Below, piece after piece: positions 35,857 to 55,186 of a DNA stretch of 64,000 bases. The DNA is from Harmothoe impar (taxonomy: Eukaryota > Annelida > Polychaeta > Phyllodocida > Polynoidae). The position numbers were made by a program, and so were the translations under genes. The stretch is from positions 39,896,976 through 39,960,975 of the forward strand of contig OX381718.1 of assembly GCA_947462335.1 (NCBI GenBank), read 5' to 3'. The first letter of the stretch is position 1, and the number at the start of each line of letters is the position of its first letter. The notes below the pieces were generated by a model. That model was not told where the DNA came from and searched no databases. It saw only the letters and a program-made list of their open reading frames with translations.

Positions 35857-35862
35857 AATAGC
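35857..35862. repeat. Polinton target-site duplication AATAGC, left
   Basis: AATAGC immediately before the left terminus is repeated immediately after the right terminus (55,181-55,186). Six-bp duplications are characteristic of Polintons. Confidence 0.9.
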
Positions 35863-36167
35863 AGTAGTATATAGGAGCATATTCAGCGCGTAGTAAACGG
35901 GTGCATCTAGGTCAGTTGACACTTGCAGAACGGAAGTGACCTCTGTCAACCAATCAGAAGCTTCTAAATGACAGGAAGTGACGTCATCAGAGGTCATGAC
36001 ATACTTTACAAGCTTCTGATTGGCTAGTACAATGTCAACATGACCTACTTCACTTGTACACGTGTTGAAGACCACGTGCTTATAATAAATGTCAACAATG
36101 ACACGTGTTTAAGTCCACGTGGTTGAAATAAATGTCAACAATGACATTGAGTAATGCCGTCACATGC
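35863..36167. repeat. Polinton left terminal inverted repeat
   Basis: About 305 bp, matching the inverse of 54,900-55,180 with scattered mismatches and indels. The outermost 30 bp are identical. Contains a CRE (TGACGTCA), ETS-type sites (CGGAAGTGAC, AGGAAGTGAC), two CCAATCAGAAGCTTC/GAAGCTTGT-type boxes in opposite orientation and CACGTG E-boxes. Confidence 0.92.
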
Positions 36168-37853: not shown

Positions 37854-40800
37854 TCATATATCTAAAGGTTCAGTGCTGACACCATCTTCACATACTATTC
37901 TCTTAATGTACTGGTAGTTTAGACCTTGCTTGTTCTGAGAGTATGTAGTGACGTGATGGTCTATAACTCTGAAACCTCTGTTTGTCACAACATGAGTCTT
38001 TTCTGTTTTCAAAACGTTCTGATAATTTGTCTCAGTAAGATTATTCTGCCTCTGGATAACTCCTTTGCAACTAGTCTTATTCCCTGTCTCACTGACACAC
38101 ATGTAACATTTAGGGTTCAAAGATGTCATAGCGTCTCCTTCCCACTCTATCTTGAACAGACCTGGAGTTCGCTTGTCAAACACCAGGCGGCGATAGCAAC
38201 ACGGTGGTTGTACCCATGGGTAGTTGTGTGTTCTGCATTGAATGTACGTCTCTCTATGTTGAGGATTATCACAAGATTCAGAAGGTAACCACCTGTGACG
38301 CTCTCTGAAGTATTGCTCACGCATCTCAGGTTTGACAGCTTCGTCTAAATTCTTTTTAGACAATGCAAAATAAAAACTGTCAGTGTCCATTTCACACATT
38401 TCAAAGTCTTTTGAGTCAATGAACTTCAACAAGAAGTCGTAGTAGAACGCTAACATTTTCAGTTTAGCATACTGGTATACCATGAACCCAATCTGAACAG
38501 GTAAGTCGTATGTGATACTAGTCGGGAGAGATGACATTTCTACAGTGTTCTCACTGATGTCATGCACTTGTTGTACTGACCAGTGCAGACAATGTCGACT
38601 AGCAAAATCTGGACTTACATATTTAGTATTCAAGAAATTCTGCTTGTTACATATAGTCTTACCATATGAACTGTTACCTAACAGTTTATACAAGTCAGAC
38701 AGGATCTTGCAGTCAACATTCTCATCTCCTTTCCGTCTAGCTGCTGTCACTTCTTGCACAAAAGGTCTGAAAGTTTCTTCAGGTGTGTATTGAACTAACA
38801 AGTGCACTTTGCTAACTACTAAACCTTTCTCTAGATACCACTTAAGTAACGGAGTACCTAGTAGAAGACCTGATCCATGGAAACTACCTATCAACTGTCT
38901 CTGAGGTTGACGCAGTTTCCCTACACTTTCCAGATAAGTTTTCATATGGTCACCTACATCTTCTTTGCTGACAAGAATGTTCTTGAAAACTGGTGTCATT
39001 TCAGCAAAATATGGTTTGAGATGTTCAGGTGTGTGAATATCTACTTGAATCAACCCAAACACTGAACCACTTTTCACACCTTCTATTATCTCAGCTTGAC
39101 TCATCTTACCAGCTGAAGACGGTCTATTAACACTCCATTCAGGTTTCAGTTTCAAACACTGAGTGTTTTTTCGTAATTTGATCCACTGACATTCATATTG
39201 TTCTACTACTGTGTAACCTAAACTTTTCAGATACAGAGTTACAGCAGCTGTTTTACTAGAACGCTCTTCTATCCATTCCCGACCCTTCGTACTAGTCATC
39301 AATGTCTTGTTGATCTGACATGTATGACCATGCCAATAGCAACCATGGAACTGATATATCAATTTACGATCAGGGACTATCCCATCTACTCTTATACGCT
39401 GACTACCTACACTGACTTCACCATAGTTGTATTGATGTAAAATAGGTACTTTGTCTACTATAGCTCTGTAACGGAGCCATTCTACAGCTGAGTAACTGAT
39501 TTGCTGACTGAGAACAGGCTTGAAATCATCTTCGTGACGTCTCACTACATAGAACCCTGTACAATGAGCTTCACCCATACATTTCAAGTACAAGCTATTT
39601 GCATCTACTCCTAAAATGTGATCACACTTTTTACTCTCAACTCCATACTTACGCTCTCTTATTCTAGTTATACCACTACGATGGTGTCTGTGGAATATTA
39701 TAGCAGGTCCACCAACTAAATTCTTTCTCAGTAAGTTGTGGACTTCTTTTTCATGATGTGAAAAGAGAACATAAGGTGTCGCATTCAACTCAGTGTTCTG
39801 AAAGAGGAACTTCAAAGTCAAACCTGGAAATGTCAAACCATCTTTGAACATGTCGACATTCCTTTCTATGAAGAACTTGCTATGTTCATTTATAGCTCTG
39901 ACAAATGGAGCTACATCTAAATTGTTATAGTACACTAAGTAGTCTTTCATTGTTTTCATTTTTTCTTTCACCCACACTTCTTTACAGCTTCTATACTCAG
40001 CTTGAGTTATACCTTTCCCAGTCAGAGAGCTATAGAAACTCCTCCTAGGTGGGAGAGTTGTGTTATCTAATTTTCGGACATTGTCCATCCACTCATAAGG
40101 AAAAAAACCTTTCTCTGTGTCTTTCAAAAAAGCTTTCAAATAACTAGCGTAATTATAACCTGGAGCTAGATAGTTCACCATGTCTAAGAACACTAAGTGC
40201 TCAGTGTATACAGCAATGTACTGGTTACACCTTTTTATAGTCGTCATAGGTTTCTTTTCTCTTTCTGAGAAGAAAGTGTGGAAGCTTCTCTTTATTAGAT
40301 TTAAGTCATATCGACCTGAGTTAAAACCTACTACAGGTACTCTGTTCATATAAGCTGTCAGAGCTTGTTTAGCTCTGACGACAGGTGATAAATTATACTT
40401 ACTTTTCTCTAACTTAGCAGCTTTCAAAGCTGCACTCTCTAACTTTTCCTCTTCAGCTTGCAGAGCATCTAGCTGATCTGTCACTACTTTAAAACGCTCT
40501 CTGACACGTTCACCTATTTCACAAGCTAACATATCTATGTACCCTAATACACGACTGACTAAGTCATCATTTTCCCTGTTACTCTCTCTGACAAAACACA
40601 CTGGTTCTGTATACCCTGGAAAGTCACTAGCTACACTAGCAGACAGTGGTACATGATCTAACTCGAAAGTTGTGTTACAACTTTTCTCACCGTTCTTTAC
40701 AAAATAACTTTCAAAGTCGAAAGCAATCTTATATGGGTATATCTTTAAGTGAGCAGGTGTATGTACACCTAGCTCACTCAACTTCTGAAATATAGCTCTA

Positions 40801-41936
40801 CTAGGTTTGTACACACCTCCTTTGTATATAAATCGTACTTTAGTACAGTCTTTTGTTACAGCAGTGTGTCTCTTCAAGTTGTAATTAGAAGAGAATGCTT
40901 TGTAACATTTTTCACAACTGTACACGCGTCCATACTTACACATGTCTACTATCAGACTCAAGTGGTTGCGGTACATGTTGAGATTCAATACTTTCTTGCT
41001 ACTACAAAGCTTGCTACGCACTACAGTCACTTTATTAGTACTAGACAGCTTGAACACTCGTATGTCTATTTTGAATACATTCTCTAATCTATCTAAATCA
41101 CTTAAGAGAATACCTTTGAACTTTTTCTGACAAGTGTCTGGATAAGCTTCTTTGAAAAGCTCTACAGTTCTATCTAATGTTTTATACAAGTGGTGTGACA
41201 AGCATCTAAAGAAACACAAGTTGTCTCTGTACACTCTCTTACTGTAACAGTCTCGGTGGAAGTGTAACATACCTCTTTTCCTGAAACTAGCAGGGACACT
41301 CTCTAACTTACCTAAGAACACATTTGTAGGTCTAATATAAGTCAGATTCACATTCACATTACCTACTACAGTCCACTTTGTGTCAGGTCTACTTGTGTCA
41401 ACTTTCACTTTACTTTTCAATAGATCTATGCAACTTTCAAAGCTCTCAGAGTTCTTAACTAAGAAGTAAGGGTCTTGATGGTCTTCACTGTCATAAAAAA
41501 CTGAAGAGTTGTTAGCTGAAGCATGAAAATACATGACTCTTTGCTCAGCGTCTTCAGTGCAAGTCAAAATTCGACCAAAAGACACAGCTACTCTATAACT
41601 GTATAACTGATTCTCATGTATAGCTCTGAGAGCTGTCACTATCTCACTCACTCCTTGATCAGATTCAAAAGTAGTTAATCTGACGTTATATATAGCTTGT
41701 ACACAACCTAACACAACTAAACCTTGACCTATCGATCTGAAATTTGATTTGTAATATTCTAAGAAAAGAGAGTTTTTCTCAATCTCTTGAGGTAAAACTG
41801 TTTCACTAGAGAAGACTTCTCTCAAGTAAGTCTCTGAAGTACACAAGTTCTTACTACTGTTATGTATAGTAACTTGTCTAGGTATTCTAGGTGCATTACA
41901 CCGAATACAACTGATAGTATTCACGTGTCTATGCAT
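37854..41936 (-). CDS. polB: protein-primed DNA polymerase B with OTU-like and Vsr-like segments (1,360 aa)
   Basis: Replicates the element from its termini by protein priming, as known for Polintons, adenoviruses and related elements. Exonuclease motifs: FDFES (406-410), GFNSGRYD (537-544), YYNNLD (669-674). Polymerase motifs: A at DANSLYL (778-784), B at KLLGNSSYG (1084-1092), C at MDTDS (1183-1187). N-terminal to these is an OTU-protease-like signature, DNLCFFRCL (C241), with a possible partner His in YRNHLSLIV (H325), then a C2H2 finger at 341-364. Between motifs A and B, YQFHGCYWHGHTC (861-873) resembles the core of Vsr-type endonucleases. All polymerase catalytic acids are present, so the enzyme looks active. 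The roughly 400 N-terminal residues may also supply the terminal protein. Confidence 0.93.
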   Translation of the reverse strand: MHRHVNTISCIRCNAPRIPRQVTIHNSSKNLCTSETYLREVFSSETVLPQEIEKNSLFLEYYKSNFRSIGQGLVVLGCVQAIYNVRLTTFESDQGVSEIVTALRAIHENQLYSYRVAVSFGRILTCTEDAEQRVMYFHASANNSSVFYDSEDHQDPYFLVKNSESFESCIDLLKSKVKVDTSRPDTKWTVVGNVNVNLTYIRPTNVFLGKLESVPASFRKRGMLHFHRDCYSKRVYRDNLCFFRCLSHHLYKTLDRTVELFKEAYPDTCQKKFKGILLSDLDRLENVFKIDIRVFKLSSTNKVTVVRSKLCSSKKVLNLNMYRNHLSLIVDMCKYGRVYSCEKCYKAFSSNYNLKRHTAVTKDCTKVRFIYKGGVYKPSRAIFQKLSELGVHTPAHLKIYPYKIAFDFESYFVKNGEKSCNTTFELDHVPLSASVASDFPGYTEPVCFVRESNRENDDLVSRVLGYIDMLACEIGERVRERFKVVTDQLDALQAEEEKLESAALKAAKLEKSKYNLSPVVRAKQALTAYMNRVPVVGFNSGRYDLNLIKRSFHTFFSEREKKPMTTIKRCNQYIAVYTEHLVFLDMVNYLAPGYNYASYLKAFLKDTEKGFFPYEWMDNVRKLDNTTLPPRRSFYSSLTGKGITQAEYRSCKEVWVKEKMKTMKDYLVYYNNLDVAPFVRAINEHSKFFIERNVDMFKDGLTFPGLTLKFLFQNTELNATPYVLFSHHEKEVHNLLRKNLVGGPAIIFHRHHRSGITRIRERKYGVESKKCDHILGVDANSLYLKCMGEAHCTGFYVVRRHEDDFKPVLSQQISYSAVEWLRYRAIVDKVPILHQYNYGEVSVGSQRIRVDGIVPDRKLIYQFHGCYWHGHTCQINKTLMTSTKGREWIEERSSKTAAVTLYLKSLGYTVVEQYECQWIKLRKNTQCLKLKPEWSVNRPSSAGKMSQAEIIEGVKSGSVFGLIQVDIHTPEHLKPYFAEMTPVFKNILVSKEDVGDHMKTYLESVGKLRQPQRQLIGSFHGSGLLLGTPLLKWYLEKGLVVSKVHLLVQYTPEETFRPFVQEVTAARRKGDENVDCKILSDLYKLLGNSSYGKTICNKQNFLNTKYVSPDFASRHCLHWSVQQVHDISENTVEMSSLPTSITYDLPVQIGFMVYQYAKLKMLAFYYDFLLKFIDSKDFEMCEMDTDSFYFALSKKNLDEAVKPEMREQYFRERHRWLPSESCDNPQHRETYIQCRTHNYPWVQPPCCYRRLVFDKRTPGLFKIEWEGDAMTSLNPKCYMCVSETGNKTSCKGVIQRQNNLTETNYQNVLKTEKTHVVTNRGFRVIDHHVTTYSQNKQGLNYQYIKRIVCEDGVSTEPLDI

Positions 41937-42015
41937 TTTAAAAACTCTTCAGATATACACTCTCTCCTTCTTTTTTTCTTTCCTTTTTTTCACTAAAACA
42001 TACTCACTAACAAAC

Positions 42016-42018
42016 AGG

Positions 42019-42051
<33 letters not shown>

Positions 42052-42062
42052 GGACAGACAGA
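42016..42062. repeat. (CAGA)n microsatellite
   Basis: About 11 CAGA units between the polymerase start and the SIM protein gene. Confidence 0.9.
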
Positions 42063-42146
42063 CACATAATGCAAAGAATTTACAGCCCTATCAATACAGT
42101 GTTGAGGAACCTTACAACTGATGTAATTTAATTGTTGAGCACTCAC

Positions 42147-43679
42147 CTAATCAGTCTCATCGCAAGTGGTAACACCTCTGTAAAAGTTCTTGTCACTCTC
42201 CAGCATCGGCCCAACACGTTCCATGATGTCTTTGATCGTGTTGACAGTGACCGTGTACCCACAGTGTATTGGGCTGGTTGTTGCTCGACCTGCTGGCAGC
42301 GCTTTATCCATTTCTTCCACGTAGGACGACGTTCCGATGTGGATCTTAGGTTGTCCCCTGTAGAGGTTGACTAAGACACCTGTGTGTTTGACAGGGTTGT
42401 CTAAGTAGTTCAGATAGTTCTTGACTGCTGGCGCTCCTTTCTTGGCTTCTTCTTTAATCCTGTCATAGTTCTCTATGATAGATTTGCTCTGGTAGAAGAG
42501 CCCTCTGAAGTCGTTTGCCCGTAAGTTGACGCGCCTCTCATAAGGCTTGTTCAAATATTGCCTTATTGAGACGCCACTGATGAAGGGGAGCTTGTATACT
42601 TCAAGCAGCGTGCATGTATCTCCAGGTGGGTAGAACAGCTGGTCAGGAACAATGCTACCTTCGGCTTGCTGAGATGGGAAACCAAACCGACTAGGCCACT
42701 TCTCACCAGTCAAAGGGACTATGCGGAAGTTAGCCAGCTTAGACCCAACTTTCTTGGATCCGTTCCTCGGCGGAAGCGGTGTCACAACAGCAGTAGCAAC
42801 CGTCGATTGGGAAGTAACACTTCCCACACCAGCCTTTGCAGCACGTGCAGCAGCTGCAGCTACAGTAGCCACACTCTTGGTGTACTTTCGCTTCTTTTTT
42901 TTTTCAACAACTGCTTCTGGCTGAATCTGTGGAGATGGACCTCTTTTAGTAGCTGTCGTCACGCCCTTGGGAGGATTCACTTCACCACTTGTGTCACCTA
43001 CTACTCTTGAGTAGTACTCATCTGTGACTACTGTAGCTTCCCCGTTGATGACGACAACAGTGTCGGTCAGTCCAGGAGTGATGACGGCCCCGGCACTATC
43101 CCTCACTACAATGTCGGCTGGTACAGCTGTAGTGACAGGTGAGGAAGGTGGAGCACAGCGTCCTTCAGCTTCAGCTTTCTGGAACCACTCATCTAGTACT
43201 TCATTCAAGTCGTGCCCGATGATTTCACCTTCTTCTACTTCGTCCTCTGTCAAGTCGATGACGATTGGCGTAGTGGGTTGAAGTAGCTCATCACCAGTCA
43301 AGTCGATGATGACTGGAGGAGTAGCTGCAGTGGGAAGAGCTCCATTGCCTCGGCCCACGGGCATGACGTGTGACAGGGTCTGGTAAGTGAAGACATCTTG
43401 AGGCGGTTCAGGGTTGCTGAAGTCTGTAGAGCTCAAAGCTGGTGCTGACGTAGATACATCACGGTCCAGTACGCCAGTGGAAGGAGCCAGCATGCAGTCC
43501 AGATCGTGATGTAACCCCAAGATAGCTGCACTCTGCTCTTCAGGTGTACTTGGACGATGAATCCACTGTACTTCATTGCTTACTGTAGGAGGTATCTCCA
43601 CAGAAACGTCCAGAACTAAGTTCTTGCTCTTAGCTACTTTAGAACTCTTCTTAGAGCTCTTGTTGCCAGCAGACCGCAT
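42147..43679 (-). CDS. Polinton protein with tandem SUMO-interacting-like motifs (510 aa)
   Basis: The first leftward gene from the divergent centre; ATG at 43,679. The N-terminal 300 residues are disordered. They include a basic NLS-like KKKKRKYTK and two closely spaced acidic-flanked motifs, PVIIDLTGDE and IVIDLTEDE. The latter two match the VIDLT-type SUMO-interacting motifs of SUMO-targeted ligases and PIAS proteins. The C-terminal 200 residues look folded (KWPSRFGFPS..., RANDFRGLFYQSKSIIENYD, GYTVTVNTIKDIMERVG) and match no family I know. Nuclear action and contact with SUMOylated host proteins are inferred. It could also be a DNA-binding or replication factor. Confidence 0.8.
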   Translation of the reverse strand: MRSAGNKSSKKSSKVAKSKNLVLDVSVEIPPTVSNEVQWIHRPSTPEEQSAAILGLHHDLDCMLAPSTGVLDRDVSTSAPALSSTDFSNPEPPQDVFTYQTLSHVMPVGRGNGALPTAATPPVIIDLTGDELLQPTTPIVIDLTEDEVEEGEIIGHDLNEVLDEWFQKAEAEGRCAPPSSPVTTAVPADIVVRDSAGAVITPGLTDTVVVINGEATVVTDEYYSRVVGDTSGEVNPPKGVTTATKRGPSPQIQPEAVVEKKKKRKYTKSVATVAAAAARAAKAGVGSVTSQSTVATAVVTPLPPRNGSKKVGSKLANFRIVPLTGEKWPSRFGFPSQQAEGSIVPDQLFYPPGDTCTLLEVYKLPFISGVSIRQYLNKPYERRVNLRANDFRGLFYQSKSIIENYDRIKEEAKKGAPAVKNYLNYLDNPVKHTGVLVNLYRGQPKIHIGTSSYVEEMDKALPAGRATTSPIHCGYTVTVNTIKDIMERVGPMLESDKNFYRGVTTCDETD

Positions 43680-45169
43680 CCTAAACTAAAACAGTTAGTT
43701 TGTAGAAGTTGAAAAGTAGAGGCAGCGTGTAGAGTGGCAGGAGTAGAGTAGTCGTCACAGTTGAGCAGTTTGGGGAGGCTGTTATAGTGACAGCTTCCTG
43801 AGGCTGTGGCTAAGTGGATTGTAGTGTCTGGGATCTGACTGTAGCTGTCTATCTAAAACTAGTGATAGGACAATGGATCCCTTACTTTTTATCCTGGAAA
43901 CTGTTATAGTGACAGCTTCCGGAAATAGTATGGGTTTATCATTAAGTATGGCCTGTGAACACAATGTTAAAATCTTACAACATGCGCTGTGAAGTGTGAG
44001 GAGTCTTCCTGGGGTTATCTCTCTCTTCCTGTCTCTCTTTCTGTCTTTCTTGATCATAAAGTCCCTTGGAAGATGTTATAATGACATTTTCGTAGTGGGA
44101 CATGAGATCTTGATTCAAATGTCGTGCCAACCACAGTTAAAATATATCCTTATATGAAGATTGCATGACGCATGCATAGAAGGCCTGCATACTCCATCAA
44201 TTCGTGCTGTGTAGATTGCCCAGTGTTAGCTCATTAAGAGAAAATCACAGAAGTTGTGACTCTGTTTCAAGTGAAGTTTTCTACTTAATTGTACCCCCTA
44301 TATCTGTATATATTGTATGTTTATTTATTTTTGCTGTATATAGACTGTATGATTACCATCTTTATATCATCGATTGTATTATCATCTTTATCTCATCCAA
44401 TATGTGATAACAAATTATTGTATTATTATGAATGAAAAGGCATCACCTTTATTGTCATAACATATACCACAAATTGTAATTTTTGTGATTTGGCAATAAA
44501 AACCTTTCAAACCTAAAAAAAAAAAAGGAGCAGTTTGATTTCAACTGAGCAAATCAACGGGTATATATACTAATTTTACTGAGAACGATTGTCAAACGTT
44601 GTCACACGTTTGTTGAATGACAATAGACGAACATTTGACGTCTGACATTTTTTTCATATTTCATCTCTAATTGTTATTGTACGACAATTATACGCACGTG
44701 TCACTATAGTAAAGTACTAGGCTGAGTTTGGATACAACGTATCTTTATCAACCACACTGCATAAATAAGCACTGGATAACCCATAACAGACTGGTGCTTC
44801 TGCGGAGAGCAAAACAAAAAGTTGAAAAACAACAGTTGGAAATGTGAACTCTATTCAGATAGCACAGTGGCTGTCAGCTGGATGAGGCGTTGCAACATAA
44901 AAGGAACGTTCATGAATGATGTATCTTATACTACACTTTTCAAGATGAAAAAATATAAATACAGTCTAAAATTTTTTGTTAACTTATTATATGATTGACA
45001 AGTTTGAAGGTGAAGTTTACATTTTCTTCTTGACGTTTATTTGAAAGATTTTCGTTCAAGTGAGTTAATTTGTGGACACTACTTTTCTGGAGAGGGTGGG
45101 GGAAACGATTAGTGTACGTTGAAAACAACCGGCTGTGATCATATTCAAACTGAGCAGCTCTGAGACAAC
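43680..45169. promoter_or_regulatory. divergent non-coding centre of the Polinton
   Basis: Separates the leftward and rightward genes. No conserved coding frame. Repeated 'ctgttatagtgacagcttcc' blocks occur at 43,776-43,797 and 43,899-43,920, with a related 'gatgttataatgacattttc' at 44,071. These are candidate promoter elements. A TATA-like AATATAAATAC lies at about 44,952. The insertion at 44,200-44,526 is described separately. Confidence 0.5.
44200..44526 (+). mobile_element. probable retroposed LINE 3' end inside the Polinton
   Basis: Ends GGCAATAAAAACCTTTCAAA plus CCT and 12 A (44,515-44,526), typical of the 3' tail of non-LTR elements. The upstream AT-rich sequence has no coding frame. 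The 5' limit is uncertain. Confidence 0.4.
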
Positions 45170-45862
45170 ATGTCCAGTGCAGCTTGTACACCTCTACCGA
45201 TTTCACTCAGCACTAAAGACCGGCGGTCAGTTTGGGAGTTCATTTCAGACGTCAAGAGTGGAGTAGAGACTGGTGAGGAAAAGCAGTTGTTCAGATATTG
45301 TCCTGAAGAGTACATCAGAGATAGTTACATACCTCCAAATCTAGATTTTTCAAATTGTTTTCTGCATAACAACACGACTCCCATAAATGCTAGTAGTCCT
45401 TCTCTCAAGAAGTTCATAACTAGTTCTACTGGGAAAGCTACTCAATCTGAAGTAGTGAGCGGCGTGTTACTGCTAGTTTCTAAGTTACAACACAGTGTAA
45501 CTTCTCATAGTGTAGTAGCTTCAGCTATTAACTTTCAAAAATGTAGGATGAAACCCTACTTCAAAATTAATCAGCTCGAATCACAGCAGCTGGGAAATTC
45601 CGTGTTCATCTCTACGAGTATGGTACAAGGCTTAATCAAGCACACAGTATCAGCTCCTGACAAGATAACACGTGCTAAATACTCTTCAGATCGGTTTCTG
45701 TATGAAAGAGCATACAAGACTGAGATTGGACACAATGCAAATGGGTGTTGTCACGTTGTAAGAGTAGTTGTACAACGTTGTCAAAACCCTACTCTACTGT
45801 GCCAAGGAGTCTTGTATGAACTGGTGACAGCCTTTCCAACTCAATCCTTCTCCCCTAACTGA
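45170..45862 (+). CDS. Polinton protein, unrecognised (230 aa)
   Basis: The first rightward gene; start in the context AACATGTCC. The product has a Ser/Thr-rich middle, a helical stretch (SEVVSGVLLLVSKLQHSV) and a C-terminal half with alternating strands (CCHVVRVVVQRC, LLCQGVLYELV) that looks globular. No known family. It sits in the accessory block, apart from the structural gene run. Confidence 0.7.
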   Translation: MSSAACTPLPISLSTKDRRSVWEFISDVKSGVETGEEKQLFRYCPEEYIRDSYIPPNLDFSNCFLHNNTTPINASSPSLKKFITSSTGKATQSEVVSGVLLLVSKLQHSVTSHSVVASAINFQKCRMKPYFKINQLESQQLGNSVFISTSMVQGLIKHTVSAPDKITRAKYSSDRFLYERAYKTEIGHNANGCCHVVRVVVQRCQNPTLLCQGVLYELVTAFPTQSFSPN

Positions 45863-46063
45863 TGAAAAAAAAACCTTGACCAATAGTCTATTAGATGCTT
45901 CCCGAAAAAAAAAAGTGAAAAAAAAGTATAGGTGTACTAATAAACTAACTCTGGTCTCTCATATATTGAGAGACCCCCCTTTCAAACTGTCACTCTACTT
46001 CTTAAAATATTTTCCATGCACACTGTGTTTTAAACGGTTAGTTGTCAAGTCATAAATCACTCA

Positions 46064-46075
46064 GAGTATATAGGG
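46064..46075 (+). promoter_or_regulatory. TATA box for the DUF5662-like gene
   Basis: GAGTATATAGGG, about 55 bp upstream of the ATG at 46,121, with an initiator-like TCACTCATTC about 25 bp downstream. Confidence 0.5.
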
Positions 46076-46120
46076 TCGTGTAAGTGCACTCACTCATTCA
46101 AACGACCTTTCAACGTCATC

Positions 46121-46522
46121 ATGAAGACAGCTCACGACCTCTACACGCTAGTTAAAGCTAGATACCCTGAAGACGAGTTAGTATTACAGTATGTGTGTGA
46201 AAGAAAAGAGTCTGTCACATGCACTGTAAAAACTTTACAGTACATTTTCAATCATTTCAAACAGACTTTAGAGCATAGGAAATGGTTGTATTACACTTGG
46301 GTTCTGCTAAGTGATAGCTTCAATGAGAGTGAAGGTAAATGTATAGACAAGTTGATTATGAAGCACGACTTGTCTAAGTTTTCAGCTGTAGAAGCTGTTG
46401 GATACGGCTGGAAGTTTGGCCGCCTTAAGAGTTCAAAACCTCTCAAGAACTCTGACCACGTTGCAATGTGGGAATCAGCGCTGAAACACCACTACGCAAA
46501 CAACCCTCATCATCCTCAGTAA
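46121..46522 (+). CDS. DUF5662-like putative HD-type metal-binding protein (133 aa)
   Basis: The C-terminal half holds HDLSKFSAVEAVGYGWKFGR and WESALKHHYANNPHHPQ. These correspond to the HDxSKFS and W-x-x-x-H-x-x-x-N-x-H-H pattern of DUF5662, a small HD-domain-like family known from large DNA viruses and phages. Histidines at about 84 and in KHHYANNPHH, with the HD pair, could bind metal for a phosphohydrolase reaction; the substrate is unknown. The N-terminal 65 residues are an additional helical part. It has its own TATA box and is followed 15 bp later by the next small gene. Confidence 0.72.
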   Translation: MKTAHDLYTLVKARYPEDELVLQYVCERKESVTCTVKTLQYIFNHFKQTLEHRKWLYYTWVLLSDSFNESEGKCIDKLIMKHDLSKFSAVEAVGYGWKFGRLKSSKPLKNSDHVAMWESALKHHYANNPHHPQ

Positions 46523-46537
46523 CACTCTAATCAAGAC

Positions 46538-46774
46538 ATGCCGACACATTACTTGTTAGAGAGTATCATAGACATGCTAGGTTGTCGGCTTCAAAGGAAC
46601 TTAGCAGGTCGTTCAGATTTGAAAGTAGAAGACATTTTCAAAATCCCAGATACGTATCTAGAACGTTACACTGAAGCAGACAGACACAGAGTTAAAACTT
46701 ATTTAAGTCAGTGGGAGCGTGATATTACAACGTCCCCTCATCGTAGTGGTTTAGCGCTCAGAATGTTATTGTAA
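46538..46774 (+). CDS. small death-fold-like protein (78 aa)
   Basis: Starts 15 bp after the DUF5662-like gene. LAGRSDLKVEDIFKI and HRVKTYLSQWERDITTSPHR followed by GLALRMLL give the 'L..S.L...DI..I ... V...L..W.......S...L...L' layout of helices 2-6 of death domains. It resembles the product encoded at 47,125-47,688. Too short for a full domain, so the assignment is tentative. Confidence 0.5.
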   Translation: MPTHYLLESIIDMLGCRLQRNLAGRSDLKVEDIFKIPDTYLERYTEADRHRVKTYLSQWERDITTSPHRSGLALRMLL

Positions 46775-46967
46775 ACACTCTGATAAAAAAGTGAAACGTT
46801 AGTGCATCGTATAGAGTTGGGTGGGGTGGGGGGTGTGTATAGTATTAGTATAGGGTGTATGGGGTGGGGGCACCCCTCTAGTGTGAAATGGATAGGGGGG
46901 CGAGGAGTTCGAACTCAGAACGTTTTGCATACTCTTTACACGATTTCCCTACGTATCTACTCTAAAG

Positions 46968-46980
46968 AGCTATATAAAAG
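46968..46980 (+). promoter_or_regulatory. TATA box for the death-domain gene
   Basis: GAGCTATATAAAAG, about 85 bp upstream of the first ATG (47,060). Confidence 0.6.
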
Positions 46981-47059
46981 CTCCCCCCTAACCTACAACA
47001 CCCCATACAACGCTCTACCTACCTACCTGCCTGTCTACTCCTTCACACACTCGCTCATC

Positions 47060-47134
47060 ATGGCAGATTTCAATTTAGTAGTACCTGTATCATCATTCTT
47101 CAAAGGAGATACTTACCAGACGCTATGCTACTGA
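47060..47134 (+). CDS. short upstream frame overlapping the death-domain start (24 aa)
   Basis: ATG at 47,060 in a good context (ATCATGGC) opens MADFNLVVPVSSFFKGDTYQ and stops at TGA 47,132-47,134. The stop lies inside the overlapping start region ATGCTACTGA of the next frame. It may be a regulatory upstream ORF, or the true N-terminus joined by frameshift or a missed splice. Confidence 0.4.
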   Translation: MADFNLVVPVSSFFKGDTYQTLCY

Positions 47135-47688
47135 AAATAAGTAGTAAGTTGCCGACATCAGATTACATACGGTTAGGTTCATACCTCAAAGTGAACTTGA
47201 AGGACATGGGATATCTCAGTTGTGAGAGAAGTGTCATAACTCAAGCTAGAGAAATGTTCACTACTTGGTACCAGAAAAGTTGTACTACTAGGTGGAAGGA
47301 ACTAGCAGACGCCTTGGAAGAATCTTACCGTATGGACCTCATCCAATTCTCACGTGAGTACATGGACAAGCATGACATGTGGGATGGCTTAGAGAGTGGA
47401 GACATGGAGTGGAAAGTACAGAAATATTTCTCTCTTTTAGCTGAGCTCTGCCCTAGAGACTGGAAGACTATAGGGATCTACTTAGGGTTGACTTCTCATG
47501 AACTAGCTTTCATCTCTCAACCTGTGCCTTCTGACAGGACTGTCAAGAACCCTGTCTATGAAGTGCTGAGAGCTTGGAAGTACAACGAGACGTCTGAGCC
47601 TATGGCTCTGATTAAAGTGTTGCAAGACGACATGGGTCGCAGCGAGTCGCAATGTATGTTCAAGGGTTGTATGCAGCTGTACCCATAG
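47125..47688 (+). CDS. tandem death-domain protein (187 aa)
   Basis: Two death-fold repeats. The first, about residues 1-75, contains YIRLGSYLKVNLKDMGYLS, then AREMFTTWYQ and WKELADALEES. The second, about 100-180, contains DWKTIGIYLGLTSHELAFIS, then VYEVLRAWKYN and MALIKVLQDD. This is the canonical pattern of death domains as in MyD88-, FADD- and UNC5-type adaptors: W..L...LGL...I/L..I, then V..VL.AW, then A...L..VL. No protease, kinase or TIR domain is attached. A free tandem death-domain protein in a virus-like element would most simply act as a decoy or scaffold in host apoptosis or innate signalling; that is inference. Confidence 0.75.
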   Translation: MLLKISSKLPTSDYIRLGSYLKVNLKDMGYLSCERSVITQAREMFTTWYQKSCTTRWKELADALEESYRMDLIQFSREYMDKHDMWDGLESGDMEWKVQKYFSLLAELCPRDWKTIGIYLGLTSHELAFISQPVPSDRTVKNPVYEVLRAWKYNETSEPMALIKVLQDDMGRSESQCMFKGCMQLYP

Positions 47689-47748
47689 ACATAAAAGTGA
47701 GCTGTGTCACTCCAGTGTTGACCACTCTCGTCTGATCACTGCAGTAAG

Positions 47749-48438
47749 ATGGACGTCTCTAGCACTGTGGAATCTGTTGAATTCGATCCTAGACTACAGT
47801 CACCTTTCACTATGCTAATAGCAGGACCTACATCGTGTGGTAAGAGTGGTCTAGTATTCGAAGTGATAAATAACGTGAAGACTCTCGTCACACCTGAAGT
47901 ACACAATATAACTTACTGCTACAGCCAGTGGCAACCAGAGTTTGAAAAGTTGAAAAGTGCAGGTGTGAAATTCAACGAAGGTCTTCTTACAAGAGATGAA
48001 CTTTTCAACTCTAGTCGAGATACTACTAAACACTCGATGCTCATCATAGACGACTTGTTAGACCCGGAATATGCACCTATAGCTAAAGACCTCTTCATCA
48101 AAGGTTCTCATCATCTGAACATGAATGTAATATTCATTACTCAGAACTTATTCTTTGCTAACAAAGACTTCAGGACTCTCAGTTTAAACAGCCATTATCT
48201 AGTTATTTTCAAGAACCCTCGAGATATGAGTCAGATAAGTTATATATCTAGACAAGCTTTCCCAGCACAACCATCTTTCTTGACTCAAGTATATAACAAA
48301 GAGACTACAGCTAAGCACTCATACATAGTGTTGGACTGTAAGCAGAGCACACCTGACAACTTGCGAGTGAGGAACAGTATAACAACACCTTGGAACAGCG
48401 TAGTATTCATTCCTACTGGGAAAAAGCAGAAGAAATGA
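47749..48438 (+). CDS. FtsK/HerA-type genome-packaging ATPase (229 aa)
   Basis: Walker A is GPTSCGKS (26-33), Walker B MLIIDD (97-102), and VIFITQN near 130 fits the sensor region. This is the A32/HerA-like packaging ATPase found in Polintons and their viral relatives, which drives DNA into capsids. A TATA-like ACATAAAAG lies at about 47,688. Its stop overlaps the next start (ATGA). Confidence 0.92.
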   Translation: MDVSSTVESVEFDPRLQSPFTMLIAGPTSCGKSGLVFEVINNVKTLVTPEVHNITYCYSQWQPEFEKLKSAGVKFNEGLLTRDELFNSSRDTTKHSMLIIDDLLDPEYAPIAKDLFIKGSHHLNMNVIFITQNLFFANKDFRTLSLNSHYLVIFKNPRDMSQISYISRQAFPAQPSFLTQVYNKETTAKHSYIVLDCKQSTPDNLRVRNSITTPWNSVVFIPTGKKQKK

Positions 48439-48845
48439 AGGGTAGTACTAAGAGTAAGCGTGCTGAGAGTCTTAAGCGCCGTCAGAGAAGTGCTTACTAC
48501 CAAAAGTTAGTTTCTTTACGTCGTCATTACTCTCTGTTGAAACATATAGCTAAATGTAGTACTACAGACTGTCAACATTTAGTGAGAGGTCTCAGTGAAG
48601 AAGTGATCAGACTAATGAGTGTCATATGTGTCAATGTAATGAACAAAACCTTGACACCGAACTCAGTTCACGCAGTCAAGAAGTTATCGCCGTACAAGAA
48701 ACAACTGAAGGCTATAACAAAACCTAAGATTACTGTCATAGCTAAGAGACGAATACTACAGCAGAAAGGTGGTTTCATAGGTGCACTGCTAGGTGTAGCA
48801 CTACCTCTTATTACTAGTCTCATAGGATCAGCTGTCAAACGGTAG
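48435..48845 (+). CDS. small basic protein with C-terminal hydrophobic helix (136 aa)
   Basis: Start chosen at 48,435 (ATGA overlap with the ATPase) rather than the longer upstream frame. Strongly basic, with a C-terminal GGFIGALLGVALPLITSLIG helix. Similar Gly/Leu-rich amphipathic tails occur in Polinton and adenovirus-type virion core or membrane-active proteins. The role is inferred from composition and place. Confidence 0.65.
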   Translation: MKGSTKSKRAESLKRRQRSAYYQKLVSLRRHYSLLKHIAKCSTTDCQHLVRGLSEEVIRLMSVICVNVMNKTLTPNSVHAVKKLSPYKKQLKAITKPKITVIAKRRILQQKGGFIGALLGVALPLITSLIGSAVKR

Positions 48846-48847
48846 TC

Positions 48848-49870
48848 ATGTCTTACACACGTATGGCTTTAGTGAGACCTGATTTAGTGGGTAGAAGCGA
48901 CACCCCCATTTCTTCTACTACTAACACTGACCCGCTACCTAGTGCAACACTCGCGTCTTCTGCTCCAGCTGTGCTACCAGACCCTCAAACTCAGTTTTAT
49001 GAGAGTCAACTAGTCAGAGAAAAACTATCCCCACACAGTAGTCTAGTGGAGATATTGAGTCACTTACAGAAAGAAGCAACTAGAGTATTGAATGACTCTC
49101 AGTTGAACACTAGTGAGAGACTCAGTAGATACAACCAGCTCATGACTAAATCTTCTATACTATACAAAAAAGCTAAAATTGTGAGTCGAGCTGCTTCTTC
49201 TATGAACCCTAGAAATATTACTCCACACCGTCGGAGAAAAGATAGAAGAGGAGAAGAAGCAGACGATGAAGCTAGTTCAGGCGAGGATGATGATATGTTT
49301 TCTACTACTAGTCATCAAACTCCAACTCCAAGTTTACTTGGGGATAGTGGAGACGATGAATATGAGTCTCAAGAAGAAGAAGGAGAAGAAGACACAGGAC
49401 CTATAGGTAGACAAGGTGTCATGGTGATGGATACTTTAATTCAAAGGCGTGTACCTAATACTTATCAGAAGACTGCTATGAATCTGTATAGACACTTGGC
49501 AGACTCTGACAAAGGTCGAGGTACTATCAACTGGACTCCTAGTGGTGAACTAGTAGTGCACGGGCGGCGTATAGAAGGGAGTAACATCATTGATCTACTA
49601 GGTGATGCAGCTCGGAAAAATAGTCTAACTAAGAAGCAACCTCTCATAGGACAAAAGCACTTCATCGCAGCTGTTAAAAGGTTGAACCCAGACTTGAAGT
49701 TCGTCAGAAACAAAGAATCTTTCAAGAGTGGTAGTTCTATGACTCTCTCGCCCTTCAGAAGACGTTCATATAGTATAACACCAGGTCGTAAACGTAAAGC
49801 TAATACTTCACAGAGTGGTACTGGTATAACACCTCGTCAACTAGCAAAGTTATGGCGGACAAAGCTTTGA
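48848..49870 (+). CDS. conserved Polinton protein, acidic middle and basic tail (340 aa)
   Basis: Begins 2 bp after the previous stop. N-terminal Pro/Ser-rich region, a helical segment (residues 50-110), an acidic stretch rich in E/D (about 135-185) and then a conserved block with DKGRGTINWTPSGELVVHGR, IEGSNIIDLL and FIAAVKRLNPDLKF. It ends in a basic tail (FRRRSYSITPGRKRK). The conserved block looks like a family I have seen in Polinton-type elements, but I know no function. The stop overlaps the integrase start by 19 bp. Confidence 0.65.
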   Translation: MSYTRMALVRPDLVGRSDTPISSTTNTDPLPSATLASSAPAVLPDPQTQFYESQLVREKLSPHSSLVEILSHLQKEATRVLNDSQLNTSERLSRYNQLMTKSSILYKKAKIVSRAASSMNPRNITPHRRRKDRRGEEADDEASSGEDDDMFSTTSHQTPTPSLLGDSGDDEYESQEEEGEEDTGPIGRQGVMVMDTLIQRRVPNTYQKTAMNLYRHLADSDKGRGTINWTPSGELVVHGRRIEGSNIIDLLGDAARKNSLTKKQPLIGQKHFIAAVKRLNPDLKFVRNKESFKSGSSMTLSPFRRRSYSITPGRKRKANTSQSGTGITPRQLAKLWRTKL

Positions 49871-50934
49871 AGAAAGCTGTAGTCGATCGGTATACTTCAG
49901 TCAGAGAACCTGGAAGTTTCACTAGTGTGAGTAAGTTGCGACACCATCACTTCAAAAAGACTGACTTAAAAAAAATTGCTGAAGCTTTAGAAGATGTAGA
50001 TGCTTACACTAGACACAAACCTTACAAGAGACGGTTCACAAGACACAAGACTCAGACTTGGGGTATAGATAGACAATGGCAGTTAGATCTTATTGACATG
50101 AGAGAGTCTTCACGTGAGAACAAGGGGTACCAGTATATTTTAGCTGGTATAGATGTCTTCTCAAGATATGGCTTTGCTCAACCTGTCAAGAGCAAGAAAG
50201 CTGTAGATGTATTAGAAGCTTACAAAAAAATGACTGAGAGTAGACAACCTGTTAAAATCCAGACTGACAAAGGAAAAGAATTTTTGAACCAAACTTTCAG
50301 AAGTCATTTAAAAGAAACCGGTGTGGAATTGTTCACTGGAGAGAACGATGACGTGAAATGCGCTATAGCTGAACGATTTAACGCTACACTGCAAGGTAAG
50401 CTGTGGCGTTGCTTTGCTTACTTCAACAACTACAAGTGGACAAGTATACTTCAAGATCTAGTCCACTCTTACAATAGTACTGTGCATAAGACACTAGGTG
50501 CAGCTCTAGTAGACATCACAGACAAGAACTCTGATGCTCTGTTCTACAGGTTATATGAACAACCACCAGACAAGAGAACTGTGCCTAAGTTACTTTTGAA
50601 GAAAGGATCTAAAGTGTGCATGCTTGCTAAGAAGCGCGCTTTCAACAGAGGTTACGAACCTAACTGGACTGAAGAAGTATACACCATAGATTCTGTCAAA
50701 CCTAAAGGATACCAACTGAAAGATGAACTAGGAGAAGAGATAAAAGGAACTTTCTACCAGCCTGAAGTTCAAAAGGTCCATGTCCGTCAAGGGAAGCGGT
50801 ACGACATAGAGGAAGTAGTGAAGTACAGAGGCTCAGGTCGTAAGCGTCAAGCATACGTCAAGTGGAAAGGTTACGGAGATAAGTTCAACACGTGGGAACC
50901 TGCTAAGAACGTGAAAAAATGGCATTCACAATGA
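49852..50934 (+). CDS. int: Polinton integrase, retroviral type, with chromodomain (360 aa)
   Basis: rve-type DDE core: D79 in QLDLIDM, D139 in QTDKGKEF and E174 in AERFNATLQ. The D(35)E spacing is intact. The C-terminus is a chromodomain (about 317-356) with VKYRG...AYVKWKGYGDKFNTWEP, which reads methylated histone tails in related transposon integrases and steers insertion. It makes the staggered cut that gives the 6-bp duplication. It overlaps its neighbours at both ends (19 bp and 16 bp). Confidence 0.95.
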   Translation: MADKALKKAVVDRYTSVREPGSFTSVSKLRHHHFKKTDLKKIAEALEDVDAYTRHKPYKRRFTRHKTQTWGIDRQWQLDLIDMRESSRENKGYQYILAGIDVFSRYGFAQPVKSKKAVDVLEAYKKMTESRQPVKIQTDKGKEFLNQTFRSHLKETGVELFTGENDDVKCAIAERFNATLQGKLWRCFAYFNNYKWTSILQDLVHSYNSTVHKTLGAALVDITDKNSDALFYRLYEQPPDKRTVPKLLLKKGSKVCMLAKKRAFNRGYEPNWTEEVYTIDSVKPKGYQLKDELGEEIKGTFYQPEVQKVHVRQGKRYDIEEVVKYRGSGRKRQAYVKWKGYGDKFNTWEPAKNVKKWHSQ

Positions 50935-52268
50935 CACTACCTAGCAACTCGTCTATGAAAATTTTCCCAGACAACACTCTGACAACTTACAACACATTGT
51001 TACCTGAGTATGTATCTTCTAGTACTCCAATGGAGTGTGCTCTGCAAGAAATAACGTGTCCTACTAGTTGGTACAACGTAGAATGTGAGACATTGTTGTT
51101 CATAGAAGGTGAAACAGACTCAACTATACCCAAGAGCGTCATGAGTGCTAAAAGACTACAAGAAGCACTACATAAGCGAAGCTCAGACTTTTTTCCTTAC
51201 ACAGCGAACGATCCTGTGTTGAATAGGAAAAGTTCAAGTATACATGACAGCGTAGCTAAGAAGTGTCTACAGCGAGGTGTAGAGATCAAACGCTCTAAAC
51301 AAGTACCAGTACGACAACCTACAGCGAGACTTAGTGTAGAATCAGACCCAAGCTCTGGAGAAGTAGCGCGACCTGCGCCGCCACCTAGTGTCGAATCGGA
51401 CAGCGAAACCGAAACTGAACCAGACCCTTTAGCAGAAGTGCCGCCATCTGGTGCAGACAGTATCACTTACAGAATAGTACGCGGTTTGAACCCCGAGAAC
51501 CGTGCGAGTGCAGCAGTCTCAGCTGTGAGAGATTCACTCAACTTAAATTACACAGAAAAAGCAGCATTCATAAACGGGCTTACTACTAGAGAGTCAGAAG
51601 TTTTGACTGAGGAAGAACTCAGAGTAGTGAAAATAGAATTAAAGTTGAAGTATTTAGATAAACTAGTCAACACTTTTCAATTCCCAGCAGTCCGGACGTA
51701 TACAGCTTTCTCTCTGCAAGGTGTATATCTACAAGACAACTCTGACTTCATAAATTATCTGAACAAGTGTATAAACAGGAAACACCCTAGTATAGTCAAG
51801 AAACTGAGGACACACCACAAGAACAATAAATCTAACGTGTTCACATACAACAGGTATACAATGAAGTGTATTGTAGCTCTACCTCCTGATGTTGTGATAC
51901 AACTACCAGTAAACTTGGGTGTGCAGTTAGCGTTCGGAGGTGGTGTCTTCTTGATGAATAAGACTGAAAGTCAAGCTGTAGTAGACTTGAAGTTCAGAGC
52001 TCAGACTGTCTATGTATACTCTGATATAGTGAAACATAACATCGTTGGAGACAAGAGAGCACCTCTGTTGAGAGTTGTAAACATTAATCCACTGCTAGGT
52101 GACACACAGACTGTCACTTTCCAACCTTTGATGTACCAACCTGTGAGTAAGAGCAGCTTCAGACAGATCGCGATCTACTTAAGAGACAGCACAGGTCGTC
52201 CTATACCATTTGAACGTGGAGCAGTGACTGTAGTACTAGCTTTTAAGCCTATAAGCAACCACATATAG
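50919..52268 (+). CDS. minor capsid (penton-like) protein (449 aa)
   Basis: The N-terminus (NSSMKIFPDNTLTTYNTLLP, then MECALQEITCPTSWYNVE) has the 'N-T-L-T ... W/V-A-L-x-E-I ... P-x-x-W-Y-N' pattern of Polinton penton/minor capsid proteins. An acidic Ser/Pro linker (about 140-185) separates it from a C-terminal part rich in strands (VVIQLPVNLGVQLAFGGGVF, YVYSDIVKHNIVGDKRAPLL). It sits next to the major capsid gene, as usual. Family call by pattern. Confidence 0.75.
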   Translation: MAFTMTLPSNSSMKIFPDNTLTTYNTLLPEYVSSSTPMECALQEITCPTSWYNVECETLLFIEGETDSTIPKSVMSAKRLQEALHKRSSDFFPYTANDPVLNRKSSSIHDSVAKKCLQRGVEIKRSKQVPVRQPTARLSVESDPSSGEVARPAPPPSVESDSETETEPDPLAEVPPSGADSITYRIVRGLNPENRASAAVSAVRDSLNLNYTEKAAFINGLTTRESEVLTEEELRVVKIELKLKYLDKLVNTFQFPAVRTYTAFSLQGVYLQDNSDFINYLNKCINRKHPSIVKKLRTHHKNNKSNVFTYNRYTMKCIVALPPDVVIQLPVNLGVQLAFGGGVFLMNKTESQAVVDLKFRAQTVYVYSDIVKHNIVGDKRAPLLRVVNINPLLGDTQTVTFQPLMYQPVSKSSFRQIAIYLRDSTGRPIPFERGAVTVVLAFKPISNHI

Positions 52269-52275
52269 TAACAGT

Positions 52276-52767: not shown

Positions 52768-52769
52768 TC

Positions 52770-54083
52770 ATGAGTCTGTTACATCCTCATGGCCAGACAT
52801 GTGCTGTAGGAGAGTTAGATCTCCATGCAGTAGGAGTGACTCAAAAAGACATTCTGAAAAGTCAGACAGTCACTAAGACAACTAACAATGCTTTGACTGA
52901 CTACACTGACTCTTTCGACTTTACTTTTGAGCCAACTACTCTGTACACAGATTTGAGTGAAGCAGAGTTGTACTTGGAAATAGAAGTTGTAGATGCTGCT
53001 GGGACACCTCTAGCAGTAGGTGACGAAGCTGCACCTGTGAACAACATAGGCCACTCCCTCTTCTCTTCTGTTCAACTGTTGATCAACGGAGAGAAAGTGA
53101 CAGGGAACAATGAAGACTATGCACTGAAATCGACATTGTTAGACTTAGTAGGAACTGAAGTGAACGACAAGACTACTCGGTTGAAGGGTCTACAGAAGTG
53201 GATGATGGACACAGCTGGCCACATGGAAGGACGAGTTGCTGCTAACACTGGTTTCGTTGCTCGCCGGAAAGAGTTCAGTGCAAGACGGACTCACGGAGTC
53301 ATCATCAGACCCCACATCGACCTCCTCAAGCAGTGCAAGCTCTTCCCTTCACATTGTGAGTTCAAGTTCATATATGAACGTAGCTCTCCAGCTTTCTACA
53401 TGATGCAAGCTGCAGACTTGGACTTCAAAGTGAAGATCACTAAAGCTGAGATGAGCGTGCGCCAAGTGACTGTGAGAGACGAAGTAGCTGAAGTCCACAA
53501 TAAAACAGTGATGAACCCTCAGTTCGGGCCATTCAACTACACTCTGACGAGGTGTAGAGTCACTAAACACACTCTAGACGGAGGGTCACAAGAGTACAGT
53601 TGGACTCAACCCGACACAAGCCAGATCCCGACCCGTGTCCTACTAGCTTTAGTCAAAGAGACTGCAGCGTCAGGCACTAAAAGCGAGAACCCGTTCAACT
53701 TCCAGAACTACTCAGTGAGAGAAGTAGGTCTGAAGTATGATGACCATAAATATGAAGTGAAGACTGACTTTGCTGCAGGGAACTGTGTGAAAGCTTACAG
53801 GAACTTGTTCAGAGAGACAGGTCTACTAGCTGTAGGTCAAGATTGTGGTCTCACTTTAGAACAGTTCCAATCAGGGTACACAGTCTTCGCTTTCGACCTG
53901 ACTCCAGACAGGACTCCTGAATGCCCACGCATCAACTTAGTGAAGCAAGGGAAGTTGACTGTGTCTCTGAGGTTCAACGCCCCTACAAATCACGCCATCT
54001 CAGCTGTCATCTGTGCTTTCTACGACAACAACATCCAACTCACAGCTGACAGACTACCAGTCACAGACTACCACATGGCCTGA
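52770..54083 (+). CDS. major capsid protein, double jelly-roll (437 aa)
   Basis: The N-terminal jelly roll shows FDFTFEPTTLYTDLSEAELY, NNIGHSLFSSVQLLINGEKV and a DLV/LKGLQKWM helix region. These are standard landmarks of Polinton and adintovirus major capsids. The C-terminal half ends with strands LTVSLRFNAPTNHAISAVIC. The length fits the family. It forms the pseudo-hexagonal capsomers of the inferred virion. Confidence 0.92.
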   Translation: MSLLHPHGQTCAVGELDLHAVGVTQKDILKSQTVTKTTNNALTDYTDSFDFTFEPTTLYTDLSEAELYLEIEVVDAAGTPLAVGDEAAPVNNIGHSLFSSVQLLINGEKVTGNNEDYALKSTLLDLVGTEVNDKTTRLKGLQKWMMDTAGHMEGRVAANTGFVARRKEFSARRTHGVIIRPHIDLLKQCKLFPSHCEFKFIYERSSPAFYMMQAADLDFKVKITKAEMSVRQVTVRDEVAEVHNKTVMNPQFGPFNYTLTRCRVTKHTLDGGSQEYSWTQPDTSQIPTRVLLALVKETAASGTKSENPFNFQNYSVREVGLKYDDHKYEVKTDFAAGNCVKAYRNLFRETGLLAVGQDCGLTLEQFQSGYTVFAFDLTPDRTPECPRINLVKQGKLTVSLRFNAPTNHAISAVICAFYDNNIQLTADRLPVTDYHMA

Positions 54084-54087
54084 GAAG

Positions 54088-54537
54088 ATGAAGACTTCAC
54101 AACTGAACACTGTTCTTAGCCAACACCCTCACACTCGACGATACTTCCTAGGTACTTTCCCTAGTGATGAGTGCCCTGCTGAAGCAACACCTCTGACTTG
54201 CTTTGTCAGTAACACACACCCCCACACACAACCTGGACAACATTGGATAGCTTTCTATGTTCAGAGTGATGGAGTAGTGTACTATTTCGATCCTTATGGT
54301 TTACCCCCTATGAGTGTATATCACAGAGCGTTCTTGAAGAAATCGTCAGACAAGCGTGGGACGTTCAACAAGCAACAACTACAAAGTTTATACACTAAGA
54401 CTTGTGGAGCTCATTGCATCAACTTCTTGATAGAAACATGTCGAACCCAAGACCCTCAACACACTCTACACAACCTTCTCCAACTGCCAACCAACCTGAC
54501 CGATCGCATGGTAGAGCCATACATGAGTCTATACTAA
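54088..54537 (+). CDS. adenain-like maturation cysteine protease (149 aa)
   Basis: Start chosen at ATG 54,088, four bp after the capsid stop, not the longer frame inside the capsid gene. Catalytic residues visible: H52 in GQHWIAFYV, D68 in YYFDPYG, a Gln-rich stretch before the nucleophile, and C110 in CGAHCINFL. It cleaves virion precursors in adenoviruses and relatives. Intact and slightly shorter than adenoviral proteases. Confidence 0.92.
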   Translation: MKTSQLNTVLSQHPHTRRYFLGTFPSDECPAEATPLTCFVSNTHPHTQPGQHWIAFYVQSDGVVYYFDPYGLPPMSVYHRAFLKKSSDKRGTFNKQQLQSLYTKTCGAHCINFLIETCRTQDPQHTLHNLLQLPTNLTDRMVEPYMSLY

Positions 54538-54899: not shown

Positions 54900-55180
54900 G
54901 CATGTGACGGTATTACTGAAATGTCATTGTTGACATTTGAAAGCCACGTGGTGTATAGCACGTGTACCTTGTATTTACAAAGTTAGTAGGTCATATTGAC
55001 ATATATTAGCCAATCAGAAGCTTGTAAAGTATGTCATGACCTCTAATCTAGGTCAGTGACGTCACTTCCTGTCATATAGAGGCTTCTGATTGGCTCTTAA
55101 AGGTCACTTCCGTTCTGCAAGTGTCAACTGACCTACTTGCTACCGTTTCTTACGCGCTGAATATGCTCCTATATACTACT
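54900..55180. repeat. Polinton right terminal inverted repeat
   Basis: About 281 bp, inverse of 35,863-36,167. Keeps the TGACGTCA, CGGAAGTGAC (as its complement), AGGAAGTGAC, CCAATCAGAAGCTT and CACGTG motifs although flanking bases have diverged. Confidence 0.92.
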
Positions 55181-55186
55181 AATAGC
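55181..55186. repeat. Polinton target-site duplication AATAGC, right
   Basis: Exact repeat of 35,857-35,862, directly after the terminal CT. Confidence 0.9.

Follow-up and report, generated by a model that had tools for sequence, protein, structure and literature searches.

A tandem death-domain gene carried by a Polinton of the polychaete Harmothoe impar: a possible decoy of host death-domain signalling

A stretch of 64,000 nucleotides from the polychaete Harmothoe impar (assembly GCA_947462335.1, contig OX381718.1, positions 39,896,976 to 39,960,975; hereafter the window) was analysed, and it was found to hold a Polinton of 19.3 kb at 35863-55180, whose ends are of the AGTAGT type and which is flanked by a 6-bp target-site duplication (TSD). 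Inside this element, an open reading frame (ORF) of 187 amino acids (aa) runs on the plus strand from the ATG at 47125 to a stop codon ending at 47688, precisely where the initial annotation of the locus had placed a protein made of two death domains. The pieces of this gene in the window are the following.

47060..47134, plus strand: N-terminal remnant of the death-domain gene, out of frame with the main ORF; it reads MADFNLVVPVSSFFKG, the same as in the database relative P0002
47125..47388, plus strand: death domain 1 (DD1), residues 1-88; 22.8 bits against PF00531 (residues 1-87)
47413..47688, plus strand: death domain 2 (DD2), residues ~97-187; 28.5 bits against PF00531 and a profile match to FADD and RIPK1
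47689..47735, plus strand: out-of-frame remnant of the C-terminal tail with the end LTTLV, a predicted PDZ ligand; read from the sequence

The Pfam family PF00531 (Death) matched the entire window protein over two stretches with an E-value of 2.4e-12 and 47.2 bits (cut-off 22.6 bits), and it was the only family that reached its Pfam cut-off. When the halves were scored singly, residues 1-87 came out barely above the cut-off (22.8 bits) and residues 88-187 at 28.5 bits. The cut-off was also passed by seven of eight halves taken from four database relatives (P0007, P0008, P0009 and P0013), for which the DD1 scores were 36.0, 31.4, 23.5 and 21.9 bits, respectively, the last being 0.7 bits short. 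A comparison of the DD1 and DD2 profiles by hhalign gave an alignment in register (E 1.3e-5, probability 81%, 19% identity), and the two halves are therefore most likely homologous domains. The presence of two death domains within a Polinton was thus confirmed by the scores of each half, by those of the relatives' halves and by the terminal inverted repeats (TIRs) and TSD of the element; the profile search that had been proposed as a check put each half of the window protein above the death-domain cut-off. We regard it as very nearly certain that a Polinton clade here encodes a protein of tandem death domains. The seven family members scanned gave no significant match to a catalytic family, and the DED, CARD and PYD families gave no match to the window protein at E<=10 or to the seven members at E<=1. 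The earlier statement that no effector domain is attached holds for the window copy and for the 228-aa form of the protein; it overlooked a conserved C-terminal motif, and a second type of element bears a longer, N-terminally extended form. Two further assignments were tried and rejected. An F-box match in P0002 (residues 22-42, helix 1-2 of DD1; E 0.06, 13.8 bits against a cut-off of 20.5) was discarded because in the relatives this stretch is covered by Death with scores exceeding the cut-off, and the bacterial death-like domain bDLD3 appeared in four of the seven members at E<=1 (best E 0.0022), the scores shown lying far under the cut-off.

Compared with the 228-aa form, the window frame is without ~25 N-terminal and ~30 C-terminal residues, and the portion equivalent to the last helix of P0002 is not retained in the ORF frame of DD2. 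Since the missing residues adjoin the ORF as pieces in other frames, the window ORF is, as its reading frames indicate, the central part of a gene that has decayed at both ends. Searching the window's own genome (1.51 Gb, 736 contigs) gave at least 150 copies of the gene, with a match at all 150 places listed; most of the matches listed were 93-95% identical to the window protein, many rows were equal in score, and only two of the 150 had a stop inside. From 42 distinct genome copies that were examined, the window copy included, 26 encode 228 aa when the frame is read from its first ATG, so that intact copies exist elsewhere. A lineage closer to P0007 was not seen, as the best 150 genome matches listed were 52-55% identical to that protein.

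The remaining features of the Polinton are given below.

35857..35862, no strand: 6-bp TSD AATAGC, left; identical to 55181-55186
35863..36058, plus strand: left TIR, starting AGTAGTATATAGG; 85.6% identical to the reversed 54976-55180
37854..41936, minus strand: probable gene for a protein-primed DNA polymerase B, an ORF of 1360 aa with a Vsr-like stretch
46121..46522, plus strand: DUF5662 gene (PF18907, E 2.8e-14), 133 aa, shortened
47749..48438, plus strand: probable packaging ATPase gene; weak Pox_A32 match (E 0.026), under cut-off
49852..50934, plus strand: retrovirus-like integrase with chromodomain (PF00665 E 1.5e-10, PF00385 E 5.9e-9)
52770..54083, plus strand: probable major capsid protein, 437 aa, a role suggested by position and size
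54013..54537, plus strand: adenovirus-type protease (PF00770, 23.9 bits, cut-off 21.3)
54976..55180, minus strand: right TIR, pairing with 35863-36058
55181..55186, no strand: 6-bp TSD AATAGC, right; identical to the left copy

The element accordingly has the features by which Polintons/Mavericks are recognised, namely TIRs with AGTAGT ends, a 6-bp TSD, an rve integrase and an adenovirus-type protease, and the chromodomain of its integrase (PF00385, 36.2 bits, cut-off 25.1) is one of the features by which Adintoviridae are recognised. Both ends were found in three of four other Polinton copies, each with a perfect 6-bp duplication (TACAAG, AAGGTG and GTTAGC); the left end of the fourth lay outside the sequence examined. 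The divergence between the left and right TIRs was considered as a sign of age or decay and rejected, since a left/right identity of 85.0-85.4% recurs in three other copies and the difference is hence a property of the element. The minus-strand ORF is taken by us to encode polymerase B on motifs recognised by eye; it matched no polymerase family at E<=0.01 and no polymerase in the PDB at E<=1, and its residues 848-924 form a Vsr-like endonuclease stretch (PDB matches at E 0.0005-0.0007). The DUF5662 gene, which adjoins the death-domain gene, encodes 217 aa at the loci L012, L013 and L014 (PF18907 E 1.6e-21 in L013). For the capsid candidate 67 homologues were found at E<=0.001, 26 of them likewise of 437 aa; none of the 67 was named as a capsid protein, and there was no meaningful match in the PDB. 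In IMG/VR there were no close relatives of the death-domain protein, the ATPase or the capsid candidate.

Two database searches yielded 14 relatives of the death-domain protein, of which 13 carry PF00531 as a precomputed assignment and nine have a length of 225-228 aa. Identity is lowest for P0013, at 40% with P0002 and 39% with the window protein, and the two-domain length is thus kept down to ~40% identity. Taking contigs of equal size as shared (P0003/P0016 with 14,638, P0007/P0020 with 12,409 and P0013/P0027 with 8,101 bases), the death-domain gene and a capsid homologue apparently lie on one contig in three cases, and on that basis the gene would be a regular part of a Polinton clade. In 10 of the 15 family members (alignment A3) the protein ends in [ST]-x-V, in the form TLV, SWV or TSV, the variation being a T/S exchange at position -2 and L, W or S at -1. 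Of the other five, three (P0001, P0012 and P0015) are without the tail, that of P0005 is unrelated, and P0004 ends in VRTI. Ahead of the motif the sequence is variable, and in P0002 this region is modelled as disordered. Within the genome the end LTTLV is present in 39 of the 42 copies; L021 ends in LTTLF, and in the window copy and L036 the tail is not reached in frame. A C-terminal [S/T]-x-hydrophobic sequence is the signature of class I PDZ ligands, and the conserved tail end is accordingly a predicted class I PDZ ligand.

When a profile of the seven-member alignment of DD2 was compared with the PDB, FADD (E 0.0014) and RIPK1 (E 0.005) were its nearest solved relatives; entries for PIDD were weaker (E 0.15-0.17), and MyD88 had no entry among the 18 PDB matches listed for the profile. 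Structure prediction, the other check proposed for the death fold, gave weak agreement: among the first Foldseek rows for a model of DD1 alone were FADD, Fas/FADD and the PIDD/RAIDD complex, all at E>1.

On these grounds we propose, with a probability of roughly 45%, that the gene encodes a death-domain decoy interfering with host death-domain signalling. The product would be a small adaptor-like protein in which two death domains are followed by a C-terminal PDZ ligand. These domains would engage death-domain proteins of the host, namely FADD/RIPK1-like adaptors or receptors that act upstream of caspases or NF-kB, and would cap or divert the assemblies formed by them, the tail might tether the protein to a host PDZ scaffold, and a cell with an active Polinton would thereby neither die nor signal. 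Inhibition as the direction of the effect, the partners, the binding of PDZ domains and expression are each inferred. Interference of the opposite sign would be exerted by an activator, whose tandem death domains nucleate a host signalling complex such as a RIPK1/NF-kB platform, so that the cell survives or proliferates. Death domains, modules through which animal cells connect signals of cell death and immunity, work via oligomerisation, and the vFLIP of Kaposi's sarcoma-associated herpesvirus (KSHV) acts through IKK; a protein with two domains and a scaffold-binding tail could bridge complexes, and DD2 matches RIPK1 as well as FADD. The Pfam scans of the window protein and seven members revealed no effector domain that could relay a signal, and we consider activation unlikely.

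The gene has a second carrier. In 12 of the 42 copies the death-domain protein has an N-terminal extension, and these copies (type 2) belong to a Polinton type of ~9.8 kb: the C20 copy has AGTAGT-type ends ~9.8 kb apart, with the 6 bp AGTGTA on either side. The extension contains a PPPY motif in all 12 copies and is rich in alanine (26-31%) in nine, the three shortest having 9-12%. A frame of 544-582 aa started by an ATG passes through the death domains in eight of the 12, and in the other four the first ATG gives just 203 aa; an open frame of at least 525 aa was found in 20 of the 150 matches listed, which are assigned to type 2 by frame length alone. The C8 and C20 copies have one block in common with the window at E<=1e-10 (window 47077-47876, 93.6-93.7% identical), which comprises the death-domain gene and the start of the ATPase gene; the remainder of the two elements differs. 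Codons 9-43 of the ATPase recur as a scar in type-2 elements, which suggests that the second Polinton type captured the gene from the first. In the surroundings of C8 and C20, tblastn with the window proteins detected no other window gene and no capsid gene. A polymerase-like stretch of type 2 is 37-49% identical to that of the window over its main part; in the three copies checked it has 24-73 stops per frame over ~3.1 kb and open stretches of at most 193 codons. In this stripped-down carrier the death-domain gene is the one seen to be kept with an open frame. Beside the C8 copy, L016 (104-9351) contains three ORFs on the minus strand (354, 1624 and 869 aa) that by eye resemble the gag, pol and env of a retroelement. 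In L017, the right part of a type-2 element includes a ~400-base inverted repeat of itself (1257-1667 and 2508-2856, 86% identical), and short repeats lie close to the terminus.

Retention of the gene by a stripped-down element would also fit selfish cargo that triggers host death, either for release or for the killing of cells that lose the element, and FADD-type death-domain proteins do kill on overexpression. The genome tolerates 150 copies or more, and no internal stop is present in 148 of the 150 listed, which would be hard to reconcile with a killer unless it is silenced, and no antidote-like partner gene was noticed, no search having been aimed at one; we hold this explanation to be improbable.

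The decoy reading has an observed basis in two death domains recognisable by sequence, a conserved length and tail, placement within a Polinton that has many near-identical copies, the capture of the gene by another type of element, and a pN/pS (ratio of non-synonymous to synonymous differences per site) well below 1. The set for the latter comprised 33 of 35 loci with an open 220-codon core (L001 and L036 were dropped, L002 and L013 are one place, and L041-L048 were left out). Counted over distinct sequences, the averages were 0.33 among the 14 of type 1, 0.13 among the nine of type 2 and 0.19 between the types. Such values, and a 15-member family that retains its architecture and tail down to ~40% identity, stand against the view that the gene is a functionless host fragment carried along as a passenger. 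The decayed window copy and the many near-identical genome copies, possibly too young to tell, would suit a passenger, which the set averages below 0.35 already disfavour and to which we give hardly any weight.

Several points weigh against the decoy. The pN/pS averages may lean low as only copies with an open core, drawn from the best-similarity matches listed, were used. They rest on few differences (seven between L004 and L010), single pairs among those printed reach 0.79 (L010/L030), and the pair L004/L039 has two non-synonymous and zero synonymous changes. The full-length AlphaFold model, which may mix helices between the halves, had no Foldseek match at E<=0.001, and the model of DD1 is of middling confidence. 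Conservation is strong in the DD2 stretch QPVPSDRT-KNPVYEV, and this may reflect a single fixed partner of either viral or host origin. Finally, in L013 the gene lies 13 bp upstream of the ATPase gene, on the same strand as the genes for the integrase, the capsid candidate and the protease, and this position would fit a role in the virion or its assembly too.

By that explanation, the death fold is reused in capsid assembly, packaging or genome handling and has no host target; it draws on the gene order, the ATPase gene following immediately after the death-domain gene and the genes for the integrase, capsid candidate and protease lying on the same strand. In the three cases in which a shared contig is assumed, identity to the window's proteins is 70, 51 and 39% for the death-domain protein and 90, 77 and 71% for the capsid candidate; the former thus diverges more and changes faster, as is usual for host-facing genes and less expected of a virion part. 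Moreover, the element that captured the gene has a polymerase full of stops, tblastn with the window proteins detected no capsid gene in it, and an end resembling a PDZ ligand would be unusual for a virion component. We judge a virion or assembly role to be doubtful, and we rank the rivals to the decoy in the order activation, assembly role, killing and passenger.

A wider reading built on the decoy is that one Polinton clade carries a dedicated cell-death adaptor, two death domains with a PDZ ligand, which passes between lineages and serves as the cargo of a stripped-down carrier that manipulates host death-domain signalling, and whose PPPY form may recruit a NEDD4-type ubiquitin ligase to death-domain complexes. 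In this full form it is speculative, and we would sooner expect it to fail than to hold.

Polintons are usually treated as elements of replication and capsid genes, and it is not settled whether animal Polintons act as viruses. A death-domain gene that resembles those of hosts, is conserved and evolves under purifying selection would be a direct indication, open to testing, that at least one Polinton clade manipulates host cell-death signalling, in parallel to what infectious viruses do. Transfer of the gene to another, stripped-down element would point to a benefit for the element itself. The statement of the initial annotation that no standard Polinton gene of this type is known agrees with the literature covered. 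A literature search found no paper joining polinton or adintovirus with 'death domain', the founding adintovirus paper, which might list such a gene, lying outside its coverage, and 'death domain' was absent among the matches listed by a broader search on Maverick and virus-like transposons. By term search, 'death' does not occur in the main text of four papers on Polintons, Mavericks and adintoviruses (PMC11071296, PMC8097293, PMC11071308 and PMC10812802).

Other repeats surround the Polinton in the window. Two direct repeats of 539 bases (5059-5597 and 15913-16451) are 100% identical, have TG..CA ends and are flanked by ATAC on both outer sides, and 5059-16451 looks like a young long terminal repeat (LTR) retrotransposon of ~11.4 kb; one internal ORF of at least 150 aa is present in it (152 aa). 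Just outside the Polinton, a reverse transcriptase ORF at 57138-58619 on the minus strand (PF00078, E 3.1e-40) probably belongs to a non-LTR element. Minisatellite-like repeats occur at 55976-56330 and 58612-59604, the second of which reads as GYWGALPICSI-like peptide repeats.

Among known systems, vertebrate Mavericks have AGT-AGT ends, core modules and diverse accessory genes, with intact sizes of 12.7-24.6 kb (PMC8097293); AGT-AGT-type ends, core modules and accessory genes are common to them and the present element, and they differ in that 'death' is absent from the main text of that paper. Adintoviruses (PMC11071296) resemble the element in an rve integrase bearing a C-terminal chromodomain, and differ likewise in that the main text makes no mention of 'death'. 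FADD and RIPK1 are alike by the DD2 profile match (E 0.0014 and 0.005), whereas the Polinton protein consists of two tandem death domains without a DED or kinase and has a PDZ-ligand-like tail end. A Marseillevirus LCMAC202 protein of 658 residues annotated as 'Death domain-containing' (UniProt A0A481YZ84) was a Foldseek target at E 4.2; at this value a real similarity is unsupported, and the entry shows just that virus proteins so labelled exist. Viruses are known to encode death-fold decoys, among them the vFLIPs with tandem DEDs, E10/vCLAP of equine herpesvirus with a CARD, and M13L of myxoma virus with a PYD. These share with the Polinton protein that they are small virus-encoded death-fold modules without an enzyme; they are built from DED, CARD or PYD and are carried by herpesviruses and poxviruses, whereas both domains here are Death proper and the carrier is an integrating Polinton. 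If the decoy reading holds, the protein would extend the known virus-encoded death-fold decoys by tandem death domains and a possible PDZ tether.
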